A program made the position numbers and the translations under genes. A stretch of 21,203 bases of DNA. Origin: a virus. The stretch covers positions 1-21,203 of the IMG/VR virus record IMGVR_UViG_3300048549_000558. One strand, written 5' to 3'. The notes under the pieces were generated by a model. It ran no database searches. It was not told where the DNA came from and saw nothing but the letters and a program-made list of their open reading frames with translations. Below, one piece after another: positions 9,259 to 20,527 of the stretch (its first letter is position 1; the number at the start of each line of letters is the position of its first letter).

Positions 9259-9615
9259 TTATCTGTCGAGTTCCTCAGCTTGTGAGCCTAAAATGAATAA
9301 ATGATAGTCCGCGGTATCATTCTTATATGGATTTTTACCTCGTCCTTTTGATTTGTATCCATCCTTGTATGCTTTGGAGTTTTCTACTTTCTTAAGAAGT
9401 GGCTTCTTTGTAAAAAGTATGGCTAAGATTTCATCAATATCACTTGCTGTTACCTTAGTATTTCCACCTTTAGCAAATACTTCAGGCTTCACGGCTTCTT
9501 CAACACCATCAAAGATTTCTATACTATGAATCTGCCTGAAATCATAAGATGCTTTCGATTCCGACTCTTCTTGCTCAAGGAGGATGTTTACTATCGTATC
9601 TTTTATGTTTTTCAT
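9259..9615 (-). CDS. Small late-unit protein with RMF-like motif (118 aa)
   Basis: An N-terminal amphipathic helix (MKNIKDTIVNILLEQEESES) resembles the start region of its tagged neighbours only weakly. Residues 25-60 are acidic, with a DGVEEA piece that would suit a prohead protease. The C-terminal third (AYKDGYKSKGRGKNPYKNDT, then a helix ending ILGSQAEEL) resembles the A-Y-x2-G-Y...G...NPY pattern of ribosome modulation factor-like domains. That resemblance is weak and by eye only. The ATG overlaps the stop of the basic protein gene as ATGA. If the RMF resemblance is real it could bind ribosomes; otherwise the function is unknown. Confidence 0.72.
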   Translation of the reverse strand: MKNIKDTIVNILLEQEESESKASYDFRQIHSIEIFDGVEEAVKPEVFAKGGNTKVTASDIDEILAILFTKKPLLKKVENSKAYKDGYKSKGRGKNPYKNDTADYHLFILGSQAEELDR

Positions 9616-9965
9616 TTAGTATTTAAGTTTTTAATTCTATCTTTTTCCTTTTGCTTGATTGAGGGAAGCAGCTTTTTAGCTATCTTTGAAATTGCTGCTT
9701 TCTTTTTATCCAACTTCTTATCAATCACTGCTTTCTGCGCAAAAGACAATTGATCATATGGAGTCTGCTTTGTTAATTTCTTTCTAAGTAAATCCTTGGC
9801 TGCTTTATTTGCCCTCATTTTTAATTTCTCTGGGTTAGCCTTCTTCTTCATCGCAATCTTTCTTTTAATTGCAATCTTGGGGGCCAACCTTTTCATTATG
9901 ATAGCACGCTTGCGCCTCTGTTGAACAGTGAGAGCTTCGTTATAAAAATCTGAGAATGTTTTCAT
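9612..9965 (-). CDS. Very basic protein with capsid-targeting-like N-terminus (117 aa)
   Basis: The first eleven residues, MKTFSDFYNEA, match the T4 internal-protein targeting signal MKTYQEFIAEA closely, including the N-E/A cleavage position. The rest is extremely basic: I count 38 Lys/Arg against 9 Asp/Glu in 117 residues, with no Cys or Trp, arranged as charged helices (KRLAPKIAIKRKIAMKKK and later KKLDKKKAAISKIAKK). This is the profile of a DNA-binding internal head protein like T4 IPI-IPIII, inferred to be packaged and injected. Related basic proteins occur in marine T4-like phages. It overlaps both neighbours as ATGA, so the three genes are translationally linked. Confidence 0.8.
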   Translation of the reverse strand: MKTFSDFYNEALTVQQRRKRAIIMKRLAPKIAIKRKIAMKKKANPEKLKMRANKAAKDLLRKKLTKQTPYDQLSFAQKAVIDKKLDKKKAAISKIAKKLLPSIKQKEKDRIKNLNTK

Positions 9966-10912: not shown

Positions 10913-12682
10913 TTATTTCTTTATATTAAATTTTTTGTATGCCTTTTGAATAGATGATGGTGTCATCGTTAGATCAATACTGGCTTCTTTGATAAATTCA
11001 TTAGTATCTTCAGGTCTCTCCCCAAGAGCGACTTCTACGACCCTAATAAGTCTTTGATGTGATATGGAATCTTCTTTCATCTCCTCACCTCTGGGACGAT
11101 CTTTTACATTAGATGGGTAATGAATTCTTATAGGATTATTACTTATAAAGATTAGTTCACCATCAGCATCCAATCCTGCGATTGTATGATTACCTGTCTT
11201 AGAGTTCAGATCATTGAGTGGTCCTAGTTTGATAGAGCCTTGTCTTACATTAGAGATGAGGGGCTTGAGCTTGTGCTTCTTAATAAGTTTTTCTCTTTTC
11301 TTATCATTACCCTTTGTTCTGATCCAAGCCTTCTCAAGTTCTTTGAATGGAAGAGCTGCTTCTTCAAGCTCAGTGGATTCTAGGAGTTTAACATCAACCT
11401 TGCCGGTGATAAGTTTATCATCTATTTTAAATAGTTTTGCGGCTTTCTTAATAGCAGTTACGGTATTAGCAGCTTTAACAACAACCTTTTGATTCTTTTT
11501 AAGTCTGTTAACTGGCTTAATAACTATTACTTCCCAACTTTTAATTGCTTCTTGAAGTTCAACTGATTCTCCTAGAACTTTCAATACTGCCTTTTCTCTT
11601 TTACTTGAATCAGAGGTGGAAGTAATTTTAGCCTTCTTAAATGCGGGTGAGTCTGAATCAACTTTAAGAGTATCTCTATTTTTTCTAGAGTTAATTCCTG
11701 CTTTTTTCAGTTTATCTTCAGCATCACGGATATCAGCAGTGCTACGATATTTGAGTTCAACTGTGCCATAAGAATCACGTACATCATCTGGCTTTAGGCG
11801 ATTAAACATTTCTTCAAGATTAGTCGCTTCAACATAAGCATTTAATTCATACTTACCAGAATCCATACCATAGACTTGAAAGGCAAGTCTTTTCCTAGTC
11901 TCTTTACCATTCTTAGTAACCTTAACAATATATCGATTAGTCTTACCCTTACCTGGCTTTTTGGGACCAGTTGAGACTTGATTGAACCAATCATCCTCAT
12001 CAACTTCGAACCCTTGCTTCTTAGCAAGATCTAAAGCTGCTTGTGCAGCAGATGTGAATGTTTTGTGATATAATGGATATTTGGCTTCTTCTAGATCAGT
12101 TGCTTCACCAATTGTATCAACCTCGGGCTGTTTTTGAAGATAACGAGTAACGGGCTTTTCATTTGGAACAATAATGTTAAGACCAGATTTATCGATATTG
12201 AAATCATAATTACTGAATTTATTTCTCAGTTTCTTTTGAAGTCTTAATGCAGCGGGCTTTGTTAAGGCTTTAACTAATACACGGCGGCCATCTTCCAAGC
12301 CTACATTTGCTTCTTCAAGATCAGATTCTTCAGACATATCAGAAAGCATACCATTTGTATAGTCTTGAATTTTTTTCAGTCTATTTTTATCTTTAGGATT
12401 ATCGATGTATTTAGCAAAAGCATCTTGAAATCCTTTATCATCGAATACCTTGTCAATGATTCCGCCAATCTTTTTGGTTGCTGCTTTAACTGCCTTGATG
12501 ATATCTTTAATAGATGCTTCTTCAACTGCTTCCATCTTACGTGTGCTAAGTTCACGAGCAAGATCTCTTATAACTACCTTGGCTCTTGGATTAGATACAC
12601 CTTTAAAAATATCAAGGAAAGCCTTGAGCTGATTTACATCAAGCAGTGATAAATTCTTTTGATTGATTTCTGAAATATTCAT
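10913..12682 (-). CDS. Modular polyprotein-like virion candidate (589 aa)
   Basis: Start taken at ATG 12682, four bases after the previous stop; an upstream TTG would overlap. The protein is a string of small unrelated domains separated by near-identical acidic linkers of the form (T/S/V)-(D/N/E)-L-(E/Q)-E followed by A or M. Possible cut points are after E55, E124, E199, E291, E378, E441 and E566. The domains between are about 69, 75, 92, 87, 63 and 125 residues. The third (YPLYHKTFTSAAQAALDLAK through YGMDSGKYELNAY) is a domain I recall from many environmental phage proteins; the fifth has SWEVIVIKPVNRLKKNQK. The linkers match the T4 gp21 type cleavage pattern (L/I-x-E, then A/G/S). It lacks a clear targeting tag of its own. 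Confidence 0.8.
   Translation of the reverse strand: MNISEINQKNLSLLDVNQLKAFLDIFKGVSNPRAKVVIRDLARELSTRKMEAVEEASIKDIIKAVKAATKKIGGIIDKVFDDKGFQDAFAKYIDNPKDKNRLKKIQDYTNGMLSDMSEESDLEEANVGLEDGRRVLVKALTKPAALRLQKKLRNKFSNYDFNIDKSGLNIIVPNEKPVTRYLQKQPEVDTIGEATDLEEAKYPLYHKTFTSAAQAALDLAKKQGFEVDEDDWFNQVSTGPKKPGKGKTNRYIVKVTKNGKETRKRLAFQVYGMDSGKYELNAYVEATNLEEMFNRLKPDDVRDSYGTVELKYRSTADIRDAEDKLKKAGINSRKNRDTLKVDSDSPAFKKAKITSTSDSSKREKAVLKVLGESVELQEAIKSWEVIVIKPVNRLKKNQKVVVKAANTVTAIKKAAKLFKIDDKLITGKVDVKLLESTELEEAALPFKELEKAWIRTKGNDKKREKLIKKHKLKPLISNVRQGSIKLGPLNDLNSKTGNHTIAGLDADGELIFISNNPIRIHYPSNVKDRPRGEEMKEDSISHQRLIRVVEVALGERPEDTNEFIKEASIDLTMTPSSIQKAYKKFNIKK
11547..11569 (-). repeat. Linker DNA repeat, copy 1
   Basis: These 23 bases encode the ESVELQEA linker in the 589-aa protein and match 13153-13175 at 22 of 23 positions. 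Looser copies of the same pattern (GCTTCTT(C/G)AAG on the plus strand) encode the other linkers in both modular genes. Confidence 0.7.
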
Positions 12683-12686
12683 GTTC

Positions 12687-13943
12687 TTAATATTGTTTGG
12701 ATGCAAACATCTTTCGGACGGACGTCATAAATTCATCGAACTCTTTCTTTTCTGCAGGATTTAATTTAATCTTTCCGCTCATGACGGCTTGTAAAGATTC
12801 TGGATTAATACGTCCAATTTTCTTTTCTAATTTATCAAATTTGCCTTCTTGAAGTGTTTCTTCTTCAACCTCAACTGATTCTTGTTTTGATGCTACTTTT
12901 TCGATGAATTTGATAACTTCATTGGCATTTGAAAAGTGTTCTTCTTTAGGAATACCTTTACCATTTGTACGATCATCATGAGTAACTACTATACCCTTTT
13001 TACCACCAATTCGAAGAGTGATGATGTTCGTAATAGTAAGATTAATGAATGCAGTGCCGTATTTCTTAGAGATATCAAACTTTGGGAATTTACCATCTGA
13101 TAGATTCTTTTTAGCCCACTTCATTACCTTTTCGATATCACCAAAGTCTGCTGCTTCTTGAAGTTCAACGGATTCCTTAGCAATCGCTTTAGCAGCATCA
13201 TCTTTGATTTTAACAGGATATTTCTTACCCTCAAATTCAAATTCTGTTTTGCCTGCAAGTTTGGCTGCAGATGCGGCTGCGGTAAAAGCATTACTTTCTT
13301 CTTTGCTCTTCATTACCCTTTTCACAGCTTCGGCAACTTTTTGTGTTTTCTTATCATTAAAATACATTTTGTTTTTTTCCTTTTTATTTTGTGTTAAATT
13401 TTGATCTTCTTTGAGTGATCTTCTTTTCTTTTCTAAGCTTAATGCTTTCATAACATCCTTAGAAGTTGATCTATGAACATTTTCAAAAATTGTAAGAAGC
13501 TCATCCAGTTCTTTATCTGATAGTTTCATATAATCAGATTCTGTGGCTTCAGATTTCATTTCAGGCTTCTCATGTGTATAACCCAGTTTCTTCATTCTTT
13601 CATGGTCTTCAGGCTTTTCTGCCTTATATTCTTTACCCGTCTTGGGATCATACATCATATGGGGTTCAAAATCCTTTGATTCATCCATATTCTTGGTGAT
13701 CTTATCAGCCACATCTTTCTTTAACTTAACCTTGTAAGTCTTATCTCCGAATTTAAAGTCTTTCTTGCCGTCTTTTGCGGCTTGGGCAAGAGCACCCATA
13801 AAGGCAGGCACATCCTCATCCATTACATTTTTGGGTATAAATTTTTCTCTTTTCATAGTTGTTTGTTCGCCTGGGGTATCTTTCTTGTATTTATAAGATA
13901 ACTGCTTTGTACCAAATTCTAAATATTCGTTAAATTGTATCAT
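12687..13943 (-). CDS. Modular tagged protein with duplicated domain (418 aa)
   Basis: The N-terminus MIQFNEYLEFG resembles the capsid-targeting pattern (M-x-x-F-x-E-Y) but less closely than its neighbours. A duplicated domain occupies about residues 48-84 and 220-256, with 16 of 37 identities by my ungapped comparison (F-x15-F-x-F..K-x-Y-x-V-K-(L/I)-K-x-D). Between them are a M-Y-D-P-K-T-G-K-E-Y region (97-125), familiar in marine phage proteins, and a helical part (139-180) similar in pattern to the start of the 589-aa protein. Linkers VELQE/A (after E263) and TLQE/G (after E366) are likely prohead protease sites. The start overlaps the previous stop as ATGA. Role: candidate packaged polyprotein. 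Confidence 0.8.
   Translation of the reverse strand: MIQFNEYLEFGTKQLSYKYKKDTPGEQTTMKREKFIPKNVMDEDVPAFMGALAQAAKDGKKDFKFGDKTYKVKLKKDVADKITKNMDESKDFEPHMMYDPKTGKEYKAEKPEDHERMKKLGYTHEKPEMKSEATESDYMKLSDKELDELLTIFENVHRSTSKDVMKALSLEKKRRSLKEDQNLTQNKKEKNKMYFNDKKTQKVAEAVKRVMKSKEESNAFTAAASAAKLAGKTEFEFEGKKYPVKIKDDAAKAIAKESVELQEAADFGDIEKVMKWAKKNLSDGKFPKFDISKKYGTAFINLTITNIITLRIGGKKGIVVTHDDRTNGKGIPKEEHFSNANEVIKFIEKVASKQESVEVEEETLQEGKFDKLEKKIGRINPESLQAVMSGKIKLNPAEKKEFDEFMTSVRKMFASKQY
13153..13175 (-). repeat. Linker DNA repeat, copy 2
   Basis: This encodes the ESVELQEA linker of the 418-aa protein and differs from 11547-11569 by one base in 23. The identity at DNA level is higher than that of the domains on either side. 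Confidence 0.7.
13176..13286 (-). repeat. Duplicated protein domain, copy 2
   Basis: Residues 220-256 of the 418-aa protein (FTAAASAAKLAGKTEFEFEG and onward). The same 37-position pattern as copy 1 ends in the sequence that runs into the ESVELQEA linker. Confidence 0.7.
13692..13802 (-). repeat. Duplicated protein domain, copy 1
   Basis: Residues 48-84 of the 418-aa protein (FMGALAQAAKDGKKDFKFGD and onward). It aligns without gaps to copy 2, sharing the aromatic/lysine core and the V-K-(L/I)-K-x-D end. DNA identity is clearly lower, so this is an old duplication. Confidence 0.7.
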
Positions 13944-16165
13944 CCTCTTACTTTTGCTGCTAAATCTTTATCTGCGCCACCCCAAGTACCTTTACTCTTG
14001 GTCGCGAAAGAATTAACTCTAGCATAGCCCCATTGAGTTGCGGTTGTGCCAGGGCGATGACCTGTTTTCCAAGCAGCTACACCTCGATCAAATACTTGTT
14101 TAAGGATGCCGTATGGGATACCTGTTTTATCTGCTTTCTTTTGAAGACCTTTCTTTGTATCTTCATCAATAGGTATTGGTTCAAGTTTGGCTTTCTTTCT
14201 AAGAACATTTAATTTCTTAACAACACCTTTCTGATTCTTCGAACCGGGTATTGCTTTCATTGCCTTAGTGAGGAGTTTAATCATTTCAGGGTCCATTGTG
14301 CCTTCAGATTTAGCGTATTGACTTTTAATCCAATCTTGGGCAACCTTTGATCTTGGCTTCTGTTCAGAAAACTTCTTCATCTTTTTGTAAGCATCAGTTG
14401 TTGCCTTTTTCCAATTAGAACCAATTGAGTTATCCACAACCACAAATTCATTTCTGAAGAATGCTTGGAATTTACCAATATTCTTTTGAACATCCTGCCA
14501 CATAACTTCTACCTGTTTCGCACCGAGTGTTCTCTTTCTTTCTTGATCTCGTTTGACCGCGGTTTCAAGGTCTGTATTAACAAAGATCATAGCGACATCA
14601 TAGCCTATAGCCTTGAGATTTTCTGCTTGATTTTTAATCTTAATGAAATCTTTTCCTGTTCCATCAATGATTAATCCAAGTCGACCAGAGATATAAATGT
14701 CCATCTGTTTGCCAGTGAGTGCTTTCGCTCCTCTTCTTATCTCTTGTCCTTTTGGTGAGAAGATAAACTCTGGTTCCATTGCTCCGCCTGCTTTCTTGAT
14801 TGCTTTTTCAAAGGCAGGATCAGAATTAACTAGTTTAAGACCAAGAGCATTTAATCCTGTTTGACCAACAGTAAATGATTTACCAGATCCAGGTCCACCT
14901 GCTAGGAAAACTGCTTTGAAGATTGCTGGATCATTTACACCTTCTTCTACATTATCTTCAGTATCTACGACTGGATTTTTATCTTCGACAATTGTGTAAC
15001 CCATCTTAGGTACATTATTATATCTATCTAGTTCTTGACCGGATGGTGTTTGGATAGATACACCGCCTTTAATCTTTACAATCTTGAGAGAAGAAGCCTT
15101 TGATCCATATTCTTTTTTCAACTGCTTTTTGAGTTCTGCCATTGAATAATATTCAATCTTCTCACCAAACATATCTTTAAATTTCTTAGTATGTTGTGAA
15201 GGTTTTGTTTTTGCCGTTGCATCGCCAGGTGCAGGCTTGGTAGATTTCTTCTTAAAGTGTGCGGCTCTTTTCTGTTTTGTAGATTTAGCCATCTCATCAC
15301 CATCTGCATCTTTTGCAAAATACTTGGCTGGTTGAGTACCTTTACGATCATCGATATCCTTATCCTGTTTTACTTCGACAATCTTATCAAGGAAATATTT
15401 CTTATCATCTGAACCAAGGATGTAGTTTGTACATCTTTCTGCAACAGAATGAATATTGCCCTCCAGAGTTAAGAACTTATCACCTACTAGAAAAACATCT
15501 TCGGCAATATATCTTTCTCTGATATTGGTCTTCTTCAATTCAATGTGTTTACGAAAACTGGTCATCTCTTTCAATCCCATTCTTTTACGAAGGAGATTGA
15601 ATACGGCTAATTTATCACCATAAGATTTTGGTAATCCATTCGCAAATGATTTGAAATCGCCTTCGATAGCCGCGGCTCTCATCTTAGATGCAGACATACC
15701 AGAGACATCATCTGCATCTGGATCGCGTTCTCCTGCAGATACAATTTGAATTCCATCTGGAAAATCATAGAAGCCGTGGCGAGCCTTTACACCATTATAC
15801 TTGGTTAGTAATTTCTTAAAATCTGTAATTCTATCTGCGCCAACGACCATGGTTGCTTGTGTATATCCTTCATCATAAAGATATACAAGAGCATCTAAAG
15901 AATTTTTAATCTTATTATCAAGAATGATATTACGACCATACTTAGGAAATAACTTGCGCATTAATTGAACCTTCTCTTTATATTTGAGAGGATTCTTTTT
16001 GGGGTCAGAAGACTGAGAAGCAAAGATTCTATAATCATTGCCTATAGCAATAGAAGAGACCTTGATCAAGAGTTTTTCATGACCTGTCGTTGGCGGATTG
16101 AATCGTCCAAATGTGAATACAACCGACTTTACTTTTTCTTCTCTGAATTGTTTAAATGATTTCAT
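13940..16165 (-). CDS. Nucleotidyltransferase / P-loop kinase fusion, tagged (741 aa)
   Basis: Start at ATG 16165, overlapping the previous TAA as TAATG, with GGGAG five bases upstream and N-terminus MKSFKQFREE, a capsid-targeting-like tag. Domains: (a) about 12-190, a cytidylyltransferase/NMNAT-like fold with FGRFNPPTTGH (H29) and SGMSASKMR (155-163) as nucleotide motifs; (b) about 225-405, low-complexity K-rich linkers and small pieces (FLTLEGNIHSVAERC); (c) about 415-585, a P-loop kinase with GGPGSGKS (423-430), DGTG near 501 and a lid with several Arg (TAVKRDQERKRTLG), zeta-toxin/PNK-like; (d) about 665-741, a C-terminal domain (AAWKTGHRPGTTATQWGYAR) I associate with DUF5824 from memory. 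A V-E-E/G site precedes the kinase. NMNAT plus kinase recalls NadR; substrates are unproven. Confidence 0.85.
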   Translation of the reverse strand: MKSFKQFREEKVKSVVFTFGRFNPPTTGHEKLLIKVSSIAIGNDYRIFASQSSDPKKNPLKYKEKVQLMRKLFPKYGRNIILDNKIKNSLDALVYLYDEGYTQATMVVGADRITDFKKLLTKYNGVKARHGFYDFPDGIQIVSAGERDPDADDVSGMSASKMRAAAIEGDFKSFANGLPKSYGDKLAVFNLLRKRMGLKEMTSFRKHIELKKTNIRERYIAEDVFLVGDKFLTLEGNIHSVAERCTNYILGSDDKKYFLDKIVEVKQDKDIDDRKGTQPAKYFAKDADGDEMAKSTKQKRAAHFKKKSTKPAPGDATAKTKPSQHTKKFKDMFGEKIEYYSMAELKKQLKKEYGSKASSLKIVKIKGGVSIQTPSGQELDRYNNVPKMGYTIVEDKNPVVDTEDNVEEGVNDPAIFKAVFLAGGPGSGKSFTVGQTGLNALGLKLVNSDPAFEKAIKKAGGAMEPEFIFSPKGQEIRRGAKALTGKQMDIYISGRLGLIIDGTGKDFIKIKNQAENLKAIGYDVAMIFVNTDLETAVKRDQERKRTLGAKQVEVMWQDVQKNIGKFQAFFRNEFVVVDNSIGSNWKKATTDAYKKMKKFSEQKPRSKVAQDWIKSQYAKSEGTMDPEMIKLLTKAMKAIPGSKNQKGVVKKLNVLRKKAKLEPIPIDEDTKKGLQKKADKTGIPYGILKQVFDRGVAAWKTGHRPGTTATQWGYARVNSFATKSKGTWGGADKDLAAKVRG

Positions 16166-17397
16166 TAGCGCTCCCATCCTTTTATTACATCTTTACTAAA
16201 ATTGTTTGTAGAGAATTCAAGTCTATCAACCAGTTTTACTGCGCCGTTGCTTGTCTTATCGATAGCAACAAACCCTTCTGATCCTGTAACCTTGAATCCA
16301 TTCTTGGTGCGAACAAATGTTTTCATCTGTTTCACCTTATCAAGTTTATTTATAATAATCAACTTGGCATCTACGATGGCATTTTGAAGTTCAAATACAA
16401 GTTCAAGGTTCTTTCTATTTTTCGATGAGAAGAAACTCATGAGTTCTTGCTCTTTCTTATCGACACCTTCTTTTCCTTTTGGAGATTTTCTTTGTGCTCT
16501 TTCCTTTTCAAATTTGGTCTTGAACCAATTAATCAGATCATTGACGTGTTTTGCAGGAGATGCTATTCTCTCTCCTTTACGAACTAGCGTATTATTAAAT
16601 GTTTCGAATTGTTGTGCAAGAGATTGGTTCTTTTCAATCTGGCGAAGAGTCGATCCCGCAATCTTCTGAAATATCTTTCCAGCCTTTGTTAGAGCCTCAT
16701 TGACCTCATTGGTATCTGCCGCGGTGAAAGTAGCCTTGCCACTGACATCATTATATTCAGCATCTTGAAACCAAACAGAGTCGGTCTTCTTCAACTTGGT
16801 CATATCAACCTTGAATTTGGCTTTCATATTTTCAAATGAATCACCTTCGTATGTTGTATGGAAGACCACACCAATCTTTGCTTTTGCTATCTGCTTACCG
16901 AGATTAGAATCCACAGGAACAGAATAAACAATAGTATTAGGTTGGAATGTGTAATAAGATTCTCCTTCAATAGATTCTTTAGCGATATCACCAGAGGTAA
17001 ACATTATGTCACCTTGAATAACACCCTTGATTCCTAATTTCTTCAATTCATTGTATGCAATTATTAATTTATCCGCAAGATCACCTGATGTATCAGCCTT
17101 AACATCTGCTTCAGATTTATAAACCTTAGGTTCTTTATTAAAGATTCCCTTTTTAGCAACAAAGAATTGACCATCAGAAGGGTCGATCCCAGCGAAGACC
17201 GCAGGTGCGCCATCCCATTTAACAGTTACATCATGGGAATTGCTAGAATTGCCGGCGAGCATATCTCTCATCGATCTTAAAGCAAAGATGGCTTCTCTAG
17301 CTCCTTTAACACCACCATAGATCACACGGTCCTCGATGTGTGTCATATGGGTATTCTTACCAGTGGCTTCTGATAGATATTTTTTGAAAGATAACAT
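16165..17397 (-). CDS. KxDG nucleotidyltransferase-like protein, tagged (410 aa)
   Basis: The N-terminus MLSFKKYLSEA fits the capsid-targeting pattern with a possible cut after E10. Residues 57-66 read VTVKWDGAPA: K60-W-D-G63 is motif I of the ligase/capping-enzyme nucleotidyltransferase superfamily, where the lysine takes the AMP or GMP. In order follow FFVAKKG (78-84, Ia-like), GVIQGDIMF (125-133, III-like), IGVVFHTTYEG (175-185, IIIa-like), SEGFVAID (373-380, motif IV-like E374-G) and AVKLVDR (386-392, motif V-like K388). A helical insert of about 150 residues separates IIIa from IV. The family is common in marine T4-like phages as an uncharacterised one, which I recall as DUF6267. Both start and stop overlap neighbours as TAATG. 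Confidence 0.85.
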   Translation of the reverse strand: MLSFKKYLSEATGKNTHMTHIEDRVIYGGVKGAREAIFALRSMRDMLAGNSSNSHDVTVKWDGAPAVFAGIDPSDGQFFVAKKGIFNKEPKVYKSEADVKADTSGDLADKLIIAYNELKKLGIKGVIQGDIMFTSGDIAKESIEGESYYTFQPNTIVYSVPVDSNLGKQIAKAKIGVVFHTTYEGDSFENMKAKFKVDMTKLKKTDSVWFQDAEYNDVSGKATFTAADTNEVNEALTKAGKIFQKIAGSTLRQIEKNQSLAQQFETFNNTLVRKGERIASPAKHVNDLINWFKTKFEKERAQRKSPKGKEGVDKKEQELMSFFSSKNRKNLELVFELQNAIVDAKLIIINKLDKVKQMKTFVRTKNGFKVTGSEGFVAIDKTSNGAVKLVDRLEFSTNNFSKDVIKGWER

Positions 17398-17723
17398 TAT
17401 GATGTAGGCTCCTTTTCAGACTTTGCTTCGTTAAATTCTTTGAATGATTTCATATACTTTTCTTCGATTGAAATTTTAAGTGGTGTCGTACCTGATTTAT
17501 ATAATCTATGGTAATCCATCTTTTTCACTTCGAGAATATCCCCAGCACACATCTCCTTTGGAATTTCATTATCCATTTGAAAGAACCATCCTTTACCTTC
17601 TAAGACAGTAATGGTTCTATTTTCTCTATCACGATGCCAAACGAGTTCGTCAGTTTCAATCTTGGGATCAAACTCACGATACTTGATATTATCTTTTATT
17701 TGTTCTTTATATGGTTTACTCAT
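17397..17723 (-). CDS. Cupin-like protein with targeting-like C-terminus (108 aa)
   Basis: The centre (about 28-88) has the repeated beta-strand layout of a small cupin: VWHRDRENRTITVLEGKGWF, then GDILEVKKMDYHRLYKSG and LKISIEE. H30, H72 and the acidic residues near them could hold a metal, but the canonical cupin metal motif is incomplete. The last 18 residues begin M91-KSFKEFNEA, which matches the capsid-targeting tag found at the N-termini of neighbouring proteins. Either the tag works from the C-terminus or this is the remnant of a fusion with a tagged gene. The gene begins just after the previous stop and ends in TAATG with the KxDG gene. Confidence 0.78.
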   Translation of the reverse strand: MSKPYKEQIKDNIKYREFDPKIETDELVWHRDRENRTITVLEGKGWFFQMDNEIPKEMCAGDILEVKKMDYHRLYKSGTTPLKISIEEKYMKSFKEFNEAKSEKEPTS

Positions 17724-17724
17724 A

Positions 17725-18249
17725 TTACCAGAAAAAATTTCCGCCTCCTTTTAGACCAAGTTCGGATGCGTATCGTGGAAGATTGCAACTCCAGTAACCT
17801 GCTTTTGTTTTATCTTTCTTTGCTGCACAGTTGTGTCGAGCAGCAAATGATTTTCTTGCCTCAGGGTCATCAATCTTAGCCTTGAGACCAGATGTATCAC
17901 CAAACTGAACCTTTATTACGTTACCCTTATCGTTCTTTACATAGACATAAAATTTCTTTTTGCCACCTCTTTTAGGTTTATTCAATTCAACCTCTGTGCC
18001 TTGATATTCTGCTTCATCAATGAATGGGTGATCAAGTGGAACTTGTTCACCTTCGTAAAGACCAAATTTACCAATATCTGTTGATAATAGATATTCATCA
18101 AACTCACTCAAGGGTTTGTATGTCTCTTGTAGTTGTCTAGCATGTTCAAATAACTTATAATAGTTATCTGAGTGCGGACGAAAGATATTATGAGCCAATG
18201 GAATTTGGTTCTCTCTGTGAAATCTAAATGCTGCTTCTAATTGACTCAT
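17725..18249 (-). CDS. Conserved phage protein with RHNC...YWSC domain (174 aa)
   Basis: The N-terminal half (about 1-85) is helical and acidic, with no known motif. The C-terminal half (about 98-160) has FYVYVKNDKGNVIKVQFGDT, then PEARKSFAARHNCA and KTKAGYWSCNLPRYA. This arrangement of a short beta part and R-H-N-C...Y-W-S-C is a domain I know from many phage proteins and associate with DUF5872 (from memory). The two cysteines and the histidine could bind a metal. No targeting tag is visible (start MSQLEAAFRFHRENQ). Position between the 602-aa protein and the cupin, within the late unit, suggests a virion or assembly role. Confidence 0.78.
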   Translation of the reverse strand: MSQLEAAFRFHRENQIPLAHNIFRPHSDNYYKLFEHARQLQETYKPLSEFDEYLLSTDIGKFGLYEGEQVPLDHPFIDEAEYQGTEVELNKPKRGGKKKFYVYVKNDKGNVIKVQFGDTSGLKAKIDDPEARKSFAARHNCAAKKDKTKAGYWSCNLPRYASELGLKGGGNFFW

Positions 18250-18251
18250 TA

Positions 18252-20060
18252 TTATTTTAAGAATTTGATAAATTTATCGTAAGGTATCTTTTTAGTTCCT
18301 TCAAAATTGAAAGAGAATCTGCCCGATGCGTTTGTGCCTGTGCGGAATGCCGTGTAGTAAATTTTATTCTCTTCAATATCACTAACAACATATAAATCAA
18401 TATTTAGATATTTTTTATCCTGTGTATTGAGTCGGATACCCGAGATAGGAAATTGAACATCTTTCAATTTAGCCTTTTTCTTTTCAACATAATCTTCGGC
18501 TGATCCAAGGTATTCATACGATTTACCACTTGATTTTCCATATACTTTATATAATGGAAGAGATGTTTTGCCAAAGAAAACCTCTTTGTGCATATCAATC
18601 ACGGAATTCAATATCTCATCTGTGTTTGTTGTGCCGATGATCGATTCGACCGAGGACAATGAATAAGAATTTGATAGTAATTTAGAAACGATATCAATAT
18701 TGATCTCTTTCGATGATTTGAAATTTGTTATCTCCGTGCCAGTCTTATGAATAAGATAGTCTTTTGTATCATATAGTTTTACAACACCATTTCTCTTCTT
18801 TTGAACTTCTTTGACTAATTTATTTGCATCAGAAATCTTGATCTTCTCAAGTTTACTATTAAGATTTCCTACATCTTTCTTTTCAATCAGAAATTTATCA
18901 CCATCGATATATTGTTCAAGCAAGAACATATCTCTCTTGTCCAGACCGAATAGTTTCTGATATCTACCGAATACAGATTTCTTTTCTGATTTTGCTGCTT
19001 TCTTAAACTTGCCAGTTATCTTAGCCGCAAAGTTTCGTAAGGCCGATGCTACCTTTGAATATAAACCTTTTAACTTTTCAGCCGCTGTCTTAAAAATATC
19101 AAATACTCCTTCATTCATCTGTAAAGATTCACTAACAATATCTGTGAAATAATCATCGTATGATGGTAATTTATATTTCTGAATGATATATGCTGTTACC
19201 TTACCTAACTGAGCCTTGTCTGCGGATTTCTTTAATGAAACTTGAATCAGATTAATTTTACTCTTTTCTCCAGTAATAATACCCTTTTTATCAAAGGTGA
19301 ATGTATCTGTTTTCATCGCCTCAATTGTTTTATTCGCATCGGCGGATGAGATGATCATATCTGCTGTATTAGCCTTAACACCTGTTATCGCAACATTGTC
19401 ATTCTGTTCTTCAGCCGCATAATAATCATTGATCCTACCGTGAATAATATTTGCCTTGAATTTTACAAGAGGCATAAAGTCTGACATTCCAGCTATAAGA
19501 CCAATCATCTCAGCAAAATTCTTTGATGTCATTGTGTCGAGCTTGGAAATAAGAGTTGATTTACCCTTTGAATCCCAGTCTTGTCCATTCCCCAAGATGC
19601 TTTTTATATTATCAATAACCTTTTGACGATTGTCTGCATCTGCTTCGACATCTTTATAATATACACCGATCGCTTGAACAGTCTCAAGTGTAGGAGTATC
19701 TTTGCCCCAATTAATATCCGAACCCAATTTCAAGCCATTGAAATAATTATCAACTGCTTTTTCATACCAAGCAAATGAACCTACTGATTTTCCATCTGGC
19801 GCATCAAGAATCTCAAATGCAGCTCTGAGTGGTTTTGTATTATCTCCAAAAATTAGAGCATCACTTGGTATCTTAGTGGCATCTAATTTACTGAAGACTG
19901 GATTTGGTGGCAATTTTAATTGATCGCCTACCTTATTCTCAAAGGCTGATATTTTATCAGTCTTGAGAGTAAAAAGTGAACCTGGACCATATTTGCCAGC
20001 GCTCACGGTTGCTTCGTTGATTATATCTGAAAGTTCTTTGTAATCTTTAAATGATAGCAT
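18252..20060 (-). CDS. Large tagged protein of unknown function (602 aa)
   Basis: Start chosen at ATG 20060 (MLSFKDYKELSDIINEA), which begins with the targeting-like motif and gives an I-N-E/A cut site; an in-frame ATG nine bases upstream is also possible. About residues 27-315 form an alpha/beta region containing NTADMIISS (231-239) and LIQVSLKKSADKAQLG (271-286). That pairing of an acidic residue with a (Q/E)-x-x-x-K strand faintly recalls PD-(D/E)XK nucleases, but the key residues do not fit well. An M-N-E/G site near 315 separates it from a basic helical stretch (about 320-360, KLKGLYSKVASALRNFAAK) and a beta-rich C-terminal domain. It is the first gene behind the late promoter. Not recognised. 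Confidence 0.82.
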   Translation of the reverse strand: MLSFKDYKELSDIINEATVSAGKYGPGSLFTLKTDKISAFENKVGDQLKLPPNPVFSKLDATKIPSDALIFGDNTKPLRAAFEILDAPDGKSVGSFAWYEKAVDNYFNGLKLGSDINWGKDTPTLETVQAIGVYYKDVEADADNRQKVIDNIKSILGNGQDWDSKGKSTLISKLDTMTSKNFAEMIGLIAGMSDFMPLVKFKANIIHGRINDYYAAEEQNDNVAITGVKANTADMIISSADANKTIEAMKTDTFTFDKKGIITGEKSKINLIQVSLKKSADKAQLGKVTAYIIQKYKLPSYDDYFTDIVSESLQMNEGVFDIFKTAAEKLKGLYSKVASALRNFAAKITGKFKKAAKSEKKSVFGRYQKLFGLDKRDMFLLEQYIDGDKFLIEKKDVGNLNSKLEKIKISDANKLVKEVQKKRNGVVKLYDTKDYLIHKTGTEITNFKSSKEINIDIVSKLLSNSYSLSSVESIIGTTNTDEILNSVIDMHKEVFFGKTSLPLYKVYGKSSGKSYEYLGSAEDYVEKKKAKLKDVQFPISGIRLNTQDKKYLNIDLYVVSDIEENKIYYTAFRTGTNASGRFSFNFEGTKKIPYDKFIKFLK

Positions 20061-20092
20061 AGTTCCCATAAAATTAAAATGAATGTCTACAT

Positions 20093-20527
20093 CTATTTAT
20101 AAGATTTCCACTCTTCATATAATTTTTTAGAACGTTTCCAAGGTTCTTTTTCCCAAGGTTCTTGCTTAGATTTCCAAGGAATCATTTTACCTTTCCATCG
20201 ACTGAAACCTGAGGCTCGGGCTAAATCGACTAATTCACCCCTTGCATATTGTTTTACATGAATCATCTCATGCGCAAGGGTGTCAAAAATCAGATCATGT
20301 TCGACCGAGGAATCCATTCTTATTGTGAATACCCGAGGTCTGTGATTTCTATCTTCCCAAATACAATCACCATATAGACCTTCTTTTTCTTTCAGTCCTC
20401 TTTTTAAGATGATATTGATCTCAATGTTTCTTATTCGTGGTAATAATTTCTTCAAGAAAAAGAAAGCAGCATCTTCTACCTCTTCTCTCAATTTCTTTCC
20501 CCCACCAGTAGCCTCTATATCAATCAT
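20093..20527 (-). CDS. SprT-like HExxH metalloprotein (144 aa)
   Basis: Start taken at ATG 20527 (MIDIEATGGGKKLREEVEDA), which matches the usual start of this phage family and lies exactly at the predicted +1 of a consensus promoter. Longer in-frame starts would run into the helicase gene. H86-E87-M-I-H90 (LAHEMIHVKQYARGEL) is a zinc-binding HExxH helix, as in SprT-like and related metallopeptidases. The C-terminal tail is Trp/Pro rich (IPWKSKQEPWEKEPWKRSKK), a repeated P-W-(K/E) motif, also usual in this family. Related proteins are common in T4-like phages; substrate unknown. The late promoter of the next unit overlaps its last codons. Confidence 0.85.
   Translation of the reverse strand: MIDIEATGGGKKLREEVEDAAFFFLKKLLPRIRNIEINIILKRGLKEKEGLYGDCIWEDRNHRPRVFTIRMDSSVEHDLIFDTLAHEMIHVKQYARGELVDLARASGFSRWKGKMIPWKSKQEPWEKEPWKRSKKLYEEWKSYK
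20094..20101 (-). promoter_or_regulatory. T4-type late promoter of the internal-protein unit
   Basis: TATAAATA at 20101-20094 on the minus strand, overlapping the last codons and stop of the SprT-like gene. Expected +1 is about 20088, giving a leader of about 28 bases before ATG 20060. It is the only late promoter seen directly upstream of the long unit of tagged proteins. Confidence 0.75.

Follow-up and report, generated by a model that had tools for sequence, protein, structure and literature searches.

Candidate prohead polyproteins built from shuffled modules in an uncultured marine T4-type virus

The prohead protease of phage T4, gp21, cleaves after L/I-x-E (PMC9026906). It takes the leaders off the internal proteins IPI, IPII and IPIII and off Alt, of which IPI and Alt are active in the host, and it cuts gp22, gp67 and gp68 into several fragments (PMC9026906, PMC9958956). 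Residues 4 and 7 are the main determinants of targeting by the T4 capsid targeting sequence (CTS) (PMC9026906). Of the 14 sites that mass spectrometry mapped in SPN3US, 13 serve to take off N-terminal propeptides, and the remaining one releases the C-terminal propeptide of the protease itself (PMC10052503). Throughout the literature covered, the mapped cuts of prohead proteases amount to propeptide removal or scaffold dicing. Here we describe two neighbouring genes of IMG/VR record IMGVR_UViG_3300048549_000558 (positions 1 to 21,203, hereafter the window), the entire 21.2-kb contig of an uncultured marine bacteriophage of the T4 type. Their products, p589 and p418, are each composed of several autonomous modules with protease-like sites at the module borders, which is the layout of a viral polyprotein. 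We estimate a probability of about 0.75 that they are internal-head-protein polyproteins of a T4-type marine myovirus, cut by its prohead protease.

Modules and predicted sites of p589 and p418

A sequence-only reading of the window had placed the two genes at 10913–13943 and listed seven acidic linkers as repeated prohead-protease-like sites. Both genes are located as described (Table 1), and all seven sites are present, five in p589 (SDLEE/A at residues 124/125, TDLEE/A at 199/200, TNLEE/M at 291/292, VELQE/A at 378/379 and TELEE/A at 441/442; the slash marks the predicted cut) and two in p418 (VELQE/A at 263/264 and TLQE/G at 366/367). The pattern LxE/[AGSM] occurs 11 times in p589, compared with 2.5 ± 1.5 expected from composition-preserving shuffles, none of which (0/500) reached that number; the number of sites in p589 is thus far above chance, and that in p418 on its own is not significant, as weighed below. 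Two further p589 sites, MEAVEE/A and FIKE/A, had been missed, as had a second site lying exactly six residues upstream in four of the linkers (GE/ATDLEE/A, VE/ATNLEE/M, GE/SVELQE/A and LE/STELEE/A). Full cutting would divide p589 into about eight pieces of 23–125 amino acids (aa) plus four hexapeptides, and p418 into up to five pieces of 52–117 aa. An alternative TTG start 24 bases upstream of the p589 ATG would give a protein of 597 aa (p597).

The amino terminus of p418, MIQFNEYLE, carries aromatic residues at positions 4 and 7, as in the T4 CTS, and ends without a clear L-x-E; a second leader-like stretch (YFNDKKTQKVAE/A) lies inside piece 2. The TNLEE/MFNRL junction of p589 places a methionine first, as would be expected from a fused gene start, and module 5, which follows it, is found in three phages with different upstream neighbours. 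By their letters, L/I-x-E before a small residue, the junctions fit a T4-type (S77) prohead protease. We also note a 16-residue motif, G-T-x-x-L-x-x-x-Y-K-K-[DN]-T-P-G-[QE], at residues 11–26 of p418 (window 13866–13913). Many polyproteins of the group, and many of its cytidylyltransferase-type chains, contain it about once each, among them loci L172, L177, L180, L082, L088, L210, L226:7051-7563 and L227:10688-12031; it may serve as a second peptide for targeting or binding.

AlphaFold2 gave a mean predicted local distance difference test score (pLDDT) of 65 for p418 and 60 for p589, the latter from an alignment that was pruned after a large mixed-fragment version proved misaligned. The predicted template modelling score was about 0.3 for both, as would be the case for several separate units without a fixed arrangement. 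Module 4 of p589 is predicted to fold over residues 203–286 with pLDDT mostly near 90, whereas residues 1–33 of p418 have low pLDDT. As to whether domain borders coincide with the linkers, segments with pLDDT below 50, situated between folded regions, cover or border p589 124/125, 199/200, 378/379 and 441/442 and p418 263/264 and 366/367, that is, six of the seven listed sites, the exception being TNLEE/M. Because residues below 50 make up about 38% of p589 and 27% of p418, this match is supportive only. Neither protein matched Pfam or PHROG at E < 0.01, scaffold families included, and the long relatives gave sub-threshold matches only. Searching the PDB sequences with the YxLYH module (module 4) returned nothing useful, and Foldseek found no PDB match for either model at E ≤ 0.001.

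Table 1. Features of the window. Residue numbers refer to the encoded protein, F numbers to module families and L numbers to loci of relatives; modules and pieces are bounded by predicted sites.
Feature	Positions	Strand	Remarks
p418, candidate polyprotein gene, 418 aa	12687..13943	-	borders supported by relatives
p418 piece 1, residues 1-88: leader-like MIQFNEYLE, GTKQLSYKYKKDTPG motif, small module	13680..13943	-	F21
p418 piece 2, residues 89-205: KDFEPHMMYD and SDYMKLSDKEL modules	13329..13679	-	F29/F9
p418 piece 3, residues 206-263, ..SVELQE/	13155..13328	-	F5; pLDDT<50 at 257-265
p418 piece 4, residues 264-366, AADFGDIEK..TLQE/	12846..13154	-	F3 in 10 dereplicated proteins; pLDDT<50 at 355-366
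p418 piece 5, residues 367-418, GKFDKLEKK..	12690..12845	-	F22, C-terminal in 4 dereplicated proteins
p589, candidate polyprotein gene, 589 aa	10913..12682	-	ATG at 12682, stop 10913-10915
p589 module 1, residues 1-55, MNISEINQ..MEAVEE/	12518..12682	-	F16, N-terminal in 4 dereplicated proteins
p589 module 2, residues 56-124, ASIKDI..SDLEE/	12311..12517	-	F35; pLDDT<50 at 111-137, over its end
p589 module 3, residues 125-193, ANVGLEDGRR..TIGE/	12104..12310	-	homologues in different settings, among them L040, L041, L082
p589 spacer ATDLEE between two sites	12086..12103	-	6-residue site pairing
p589 module 4, residues 200-285, AKYPLYHKTF..YVE/	11828..12085	-	F6; 359 matching loci
p589 spacer ATNLEE between two sites, before M	11810..11827	-	6-residue site pairing; no low-confidence segment in model
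p589 module 5, residues 292-372, MFNRLKPDD..VLGE/	11567..11809	-	F26, 81 aa
p589 spacer SVELQE between two sites	11549..11566	-	6-residue site pairing
p589 module 6, residues 379-435, AIKSWEVIV..KLLE/	11378..11548	-	divergent copy of 58-aa KFWTVTITKK cassette
p589 spacer STELEE between two sites	11360..11377	-	6-residue site pairing
p589 module 7, residues 442-566, AALPFKELEKAW..FIKE/	10985..11359	-	F11, last large module in 5 dereplicated proteins
p589 C-terminal piece, residues 567-589	10916..10984	-	
Gene with 40-aa leader (..DGVEE/A) and KPADF module	9259..9615	-	F31-F4
117-aa basic protein, CTS-like start MKTFSDFYNE/A	9612..9965	-	
745-aa leader-bearing multidomain protein: cytidylyltransferase-like, Zeta/AAA_33 kinase-like, DUF5824	13940..16177	-	Pfam
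410-aa DUF6267 protein, CTS-like start MLSFKKYLSE/A	16165..17397	-	Pfam
Cupin-like gene, leader-like end MKSFKEFNE/A (MKSFKEFNEAKSEKEPTS)	17397..17723	-	Pfam
174-aa gene with EYQG..GGKKKFYVYV module	17725..18249	-	
605-aa gene, CTS-like start (MLSFKDYKELSDIINE/A)	18252..20069	-	

Module borders and sites among the relatives

Relatives were collected by scanning viral contigs with p418 and p597 (44 loci) and with three module alignments (54 loci, the best 80 of 359, and 23), the sets overlapping. Two other assemblies (L002 and L003) contain both genes in identical form, which argues against misassembly. BLAST comparison among the relatives' open reading frames (ORFs) revealed the same modules in other proteins, orders and numbers, so that the proteins are mosaics of modules of roughly 45–125 aa reshuffled between phages. 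Ninety dereplicated proteins were split at LxE/[AGSM] and clustered by reciprocal coverage, used in place of single linkage, which fused nearly all modules; this gave 48 families with at least two members. One of them, the cassette F2, measures 57–58 aa from cut to cut and occupies 12 places in the dereplicated set, with a different upstream neighbour in each of the 12 and once as a tandem pair. Chains run to 880 aa (L086) and 1431 aa (L180). In the latter (L180:2408-6703) and in a 1342-aa chain (L172:1670-5698), the linkers read EEVEIDE or ELDE and are often followed by K, R or N, which suggests that the protease of these phages has a different P1' preference.

The positions at which homology begins and ends coincide with the predicted sites. 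Considering only BLAST matches that end where both proteins run on for at least 25 residues, 147 of 399 match starts adjoin an LxE/[AGSM] site, compared with 66.9 ± 7.3 for random positions, as do 150 of 358 match ends (57.5 ± 6.9 at random). The control pattern LxK/[AGSM] is not enriched (60 starts vs 79 and 43 ends vs 75 at random). Border-supported sites number 203. In a second test, the start of each module was defined by a profile and hence independently of the site motif. An LxE/A lies immediately upstream of the 58-aa KFWTVTITKK cassette in all 36 distinct copies (5.4 at random), with P1 = E, P1' = A and P3 = L, I or V in 36 of 36 and with P2 and P4–P7 variable. The YxLYH module is preceded by a strict site in 38 of 56 copies (6.3 at random) and by LxE with any P1' residue in 54 (13.3 at random), and the KPADF module in 15 of 17 (2.4 at random), the copies not being fully independent because the phages are related. 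In ORFs of at least 200 aa, 251 linker motifs were counted, against 7 in shuffled ORFs.

The six-residue pairing seen in p589 is frequent among the relatives. The dereplicated set contains 35 pairs of successive sites at this distance, and a larger set contains 91; each other spacing up to 30 was counted 0–8 times, except for a spacing of 4 (15 and 21 times). Between the LxE that ends one module and the start of the next, the paired sites enclose the hexapeptide S-x-[DE]-L-[EQ]-E.

Several modules that are internal in some chains are elsewhere genes of their own, directly after a T4-like N-terminal targeting leader. Examples are MISFSQYLKE/GDYPLYH (L040), MKTIKQLLE/GKDFEPHMM (L025, L027), MISFKEYAE/GTGKSE (L011) and the DUF5824 gene MNKFCQHIEE/GALADK (L028). 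Module 4 follows such a leader in L038/L040, L127 and L186; DUF5824 has its own leader-bearing gene in L020 and L028, and is the C-terminal polyprotein module in L082. The KPADF module, a separate gene in the window, is the C-terminal polyprotein module in seven dereplicated relatives. Conversely, the cupin and DUF6267 proteins, encoded separately here, are fused in L013, where the leader VKSFSDYLSE/A is kept inside the chain. Many relatives, both single- and multi-module, begin with a leader that has a predicted protease site at its end.

A protease of this type is encoded by relatives. Eight of the 30 module-bearing records searched, many of which are fragments, carry an S77 protease together with related modules (contigs G001, G005, G006, G013, G015, G016, G020 and G028), and the cultured phage Melnitz encodes gp21 (the S77 protease, gene 207), gp22 and gp23. 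The 105-kb G015 combines the protease with a gp23 gene and a 783-aa polyprotein bearing the KFWTVTITKK cassette. The predicted sites in gp22 (SAELEE/A, EEDLEE/A, EEIEE/A) and gp23 (FLSE/A, LLSE/A, GLFE/A) of the relatives and Melnitz resemble the linkers; gp23 of G015 has INE/T instead. In three of the contigs, which come from more distant phages (L048 in G001, L050 in G005 and L049 in G006), the protease forms the N-terminal part of a 573–612-aa ORF, the remainder of which resembles a repetitive scaffold, apparently a protease–scaffold fusion.

Proposed processing and head entry, and competing explanations

The suggestion of a polyprotein made from sequence alone is thus backed by the homology borders at the sites, the shuffling there, the modules found behind leaders, and the S77 protease and gp22/gp23 motifs of the relatives; cutting, head location, ejection and an effector function of the modules are inferred. 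The long chain would enter the prohead core, in the case of p418 probably through its own leader. During prohead maturation an S77 protease (a gp21 homologue encoded off the contig) would cleave after L/I/V-x-E in the exposed acidic linkers, by analogy to the action of T4 gp21 on the leaders of IPI–III and on the core protein gp22. The products would be modules of about 50–125 residues, plus a hexapeptide wherever sites are paired six residues apart, and the mature modules would remain with the DNA and probably be ejected into the host along with it. By fusing and reshuffling modules at the linkers, the phage could change the set and still keep a single targeting leader.

Several findings weigh against this interpretation. 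The amino terminus of p589 contains no recognisable CTS-like leader; since its start codon lies four bases from the p418 stop, p589 may enter the head together with the closely coupled p418, or may use another signal such as the GTxxLxxxYKKDTPG-type motif. Neither a gp21-type protease gene nor a capsid (gp23) gene is present on the 21-kb contig. Both structural models are modest and rest on shallow alignments (mean pLDDT 60–65), and TNLEE/M lies inside a predicted helix with pLDDT of about 75. Some distant phages have K, R or Y at P1', unlike the T4 preference. The site number in p418 (4 vs 2.7 ± 1.6 in shuffles, P = 0.27) is within chance, so p418 alone proves nothing and evidence from outside it is needed. 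Finally, in the close group the linker leucine is encoded by CTT in 99 of 107 cases, compared with 40% in the same ORFs.

This last observation is what would be seen if the linkers were flexible hinges and DNA recombination seams within multidomain proteins that stay uncut, a shared linker then explaining the repeated LEE-A. With such uniform linker DNA the linkers may also act as recombination seams, but many module codons of the close group are uniform too, in part through shared recent ancestry. However, distant phages alter the linker letters (EVEIDE, ELDE, DEITE, PEVKE) yet retain hydrophobic-x-E, and the variation at P2 and P4 contrasts with an invariant P1 and P3. The same module junction stands behind N-terminal targeting leaders, a known place of cutting in T4 proteins, and the scaffold and capsid proteins of the relatives bear the same motif, which makes hinges in uncut proteins an unlikely explanation. 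We consider it more improbable still that p589 and p418 are prohead core (scaffold) proteins like gp22, gp67 and gp68, which would be diced, mostly expelled and without a role in the host. That gp21 cuts these T4 proteins into several fragments (PMC9958956, PMC9026906) and that the linkers are similar to gp22 sites would agree with such a role, but the modules are conserved, partly well folded and highly variable in repertoire, gp22 is a separate gene in the relatives, and the same island has enzyme-like, leader-bearing genes, unlike scaffold. A chance origin of the matches in acidic, Leu- and Ala-rich proteins is scarcely credible: p418 by itself would allow it, and for p589 and the family it is ruled out by the p589 shuffles, the coincidence of sites with borders, the invariant cassette junctions and the linker-motif counts.

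If the internal-head-protein polyprotein interpretation is correct, a maturation protease would yield several functional proteins per gene, and injected phage proteins could be found automatically as stretches between LxE/A sites. The modules match no family with a known function, and their shuffling is of the kind expected in an arms race; they are thus candidates for new proteins with which abundant marine phages counter defences or take over the host. A broader proposal, for which we would not claim even odds, is that widespread marine T4-type phages use prohead polyproteins of up to about 15 modules (1431 aa) to deliver an injected takeover or anti-defence cocktail, with linkers doubling as seams at which cassettes can be swapped without new promoters or leaders. 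Melnitz, grown on the OM43 host Methylophilales H5P1, is a cultured relative that renders the idea testable.

The gene island and comparison with known systems

The genes of the contig are arranged in the order helicase, leader-bearing genes, p418/p589, small genes and ribonucleotide reductase. Melnitz genes 14–41 follow the same order and HTVC008M matches in part, both being placed in Kyanoviridae by database records. The leader-bearing neighbours at 13940–16177 and 16165–17397 resemble nucleic-acid or nucleotide enzymes, and a KWDGAP stretch in the latter, the DUF6267 protein, resembles the ligase KxDG motif. From these similarities one could imagine an injected set of proteins for repair or nucleotide metabolism. 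The leader-like MKSFKEFNEAKSEKEPTS at the end of the cupin-like gene directly precedes the start of the next leader-bearing gene, like a fusion remnant or an early stage of fusion. Melnitz gene 18 joins the EYQG..GGKKKFYVYV module of the 174-aa gene to the cytidylyltransferase chain. An octamer resembling a T4-type late promoter, TATAAATA, lies at 20094–20101 (minus strand), some 25 bases ahead of the leader-bearing gene for the 605-aa protein. As a marker of late promoters the octamer was rejected: its four occurrences in the window, all on the coding strand, are not above chance.

Melnitz genes 15–21 and the HTVC008M island between helicase and ribonucleotide reductase represent the same gene island. 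Melnitz gene 20 contains KDFEPHMM and YxLYH modules, and the island includes leader-bearing cytidylyltransferase and DUF6267 genes. These islands are annotated as hypothetical proteins only and have fewer modules per chain than here, and the Melnitz paper mentions neither protease nor internal proteins (PMC9004378). In the literature searched, with subscription journals mostly outside it, no such phage polyprotein was described, and prior art is possible. It is the polyprotein layout that went unreported there, internal head proteins processed by a prohead protease being of an already known kind.

Like T4 IPI, IPII, IPIII and Alt, many proteins of this group have a short leader with aromatic residues, and the group has L/I-x-E sites, small modules and a variable repertoire, and the single-module relatives (MKTIKQLLE/G.., MISFSQYLKE/G..) share the layout of the T4 internal proteins. 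Unlike these, with one mature protein per gene, up to about 8–15 modules are strung together here with a site at most joints. Several prohead-protease sites per chain are also found in T4 gp22, gp67 and gp68 and in the head proteins of SPN3US and phiKZ, and gp22 of the relatives has site letters nearly those of the linkers. However, the pieces of the T4 core and of SPN3US/phiKZ proteins are propeptide or scaffold waste, whereas those described here are conserved, shuffled, domain-like modules. The proteins p589 and p418 resemble the polyproteins of eukaryotic RNA viruses and retroviruses in being single chains with protease sites at domain borders, and differ from them in that they belong to a DNA phage, that maturation presumably takes place in the prohead through an S77 protease encoded elsewhere, and that the module content varies between relatives.

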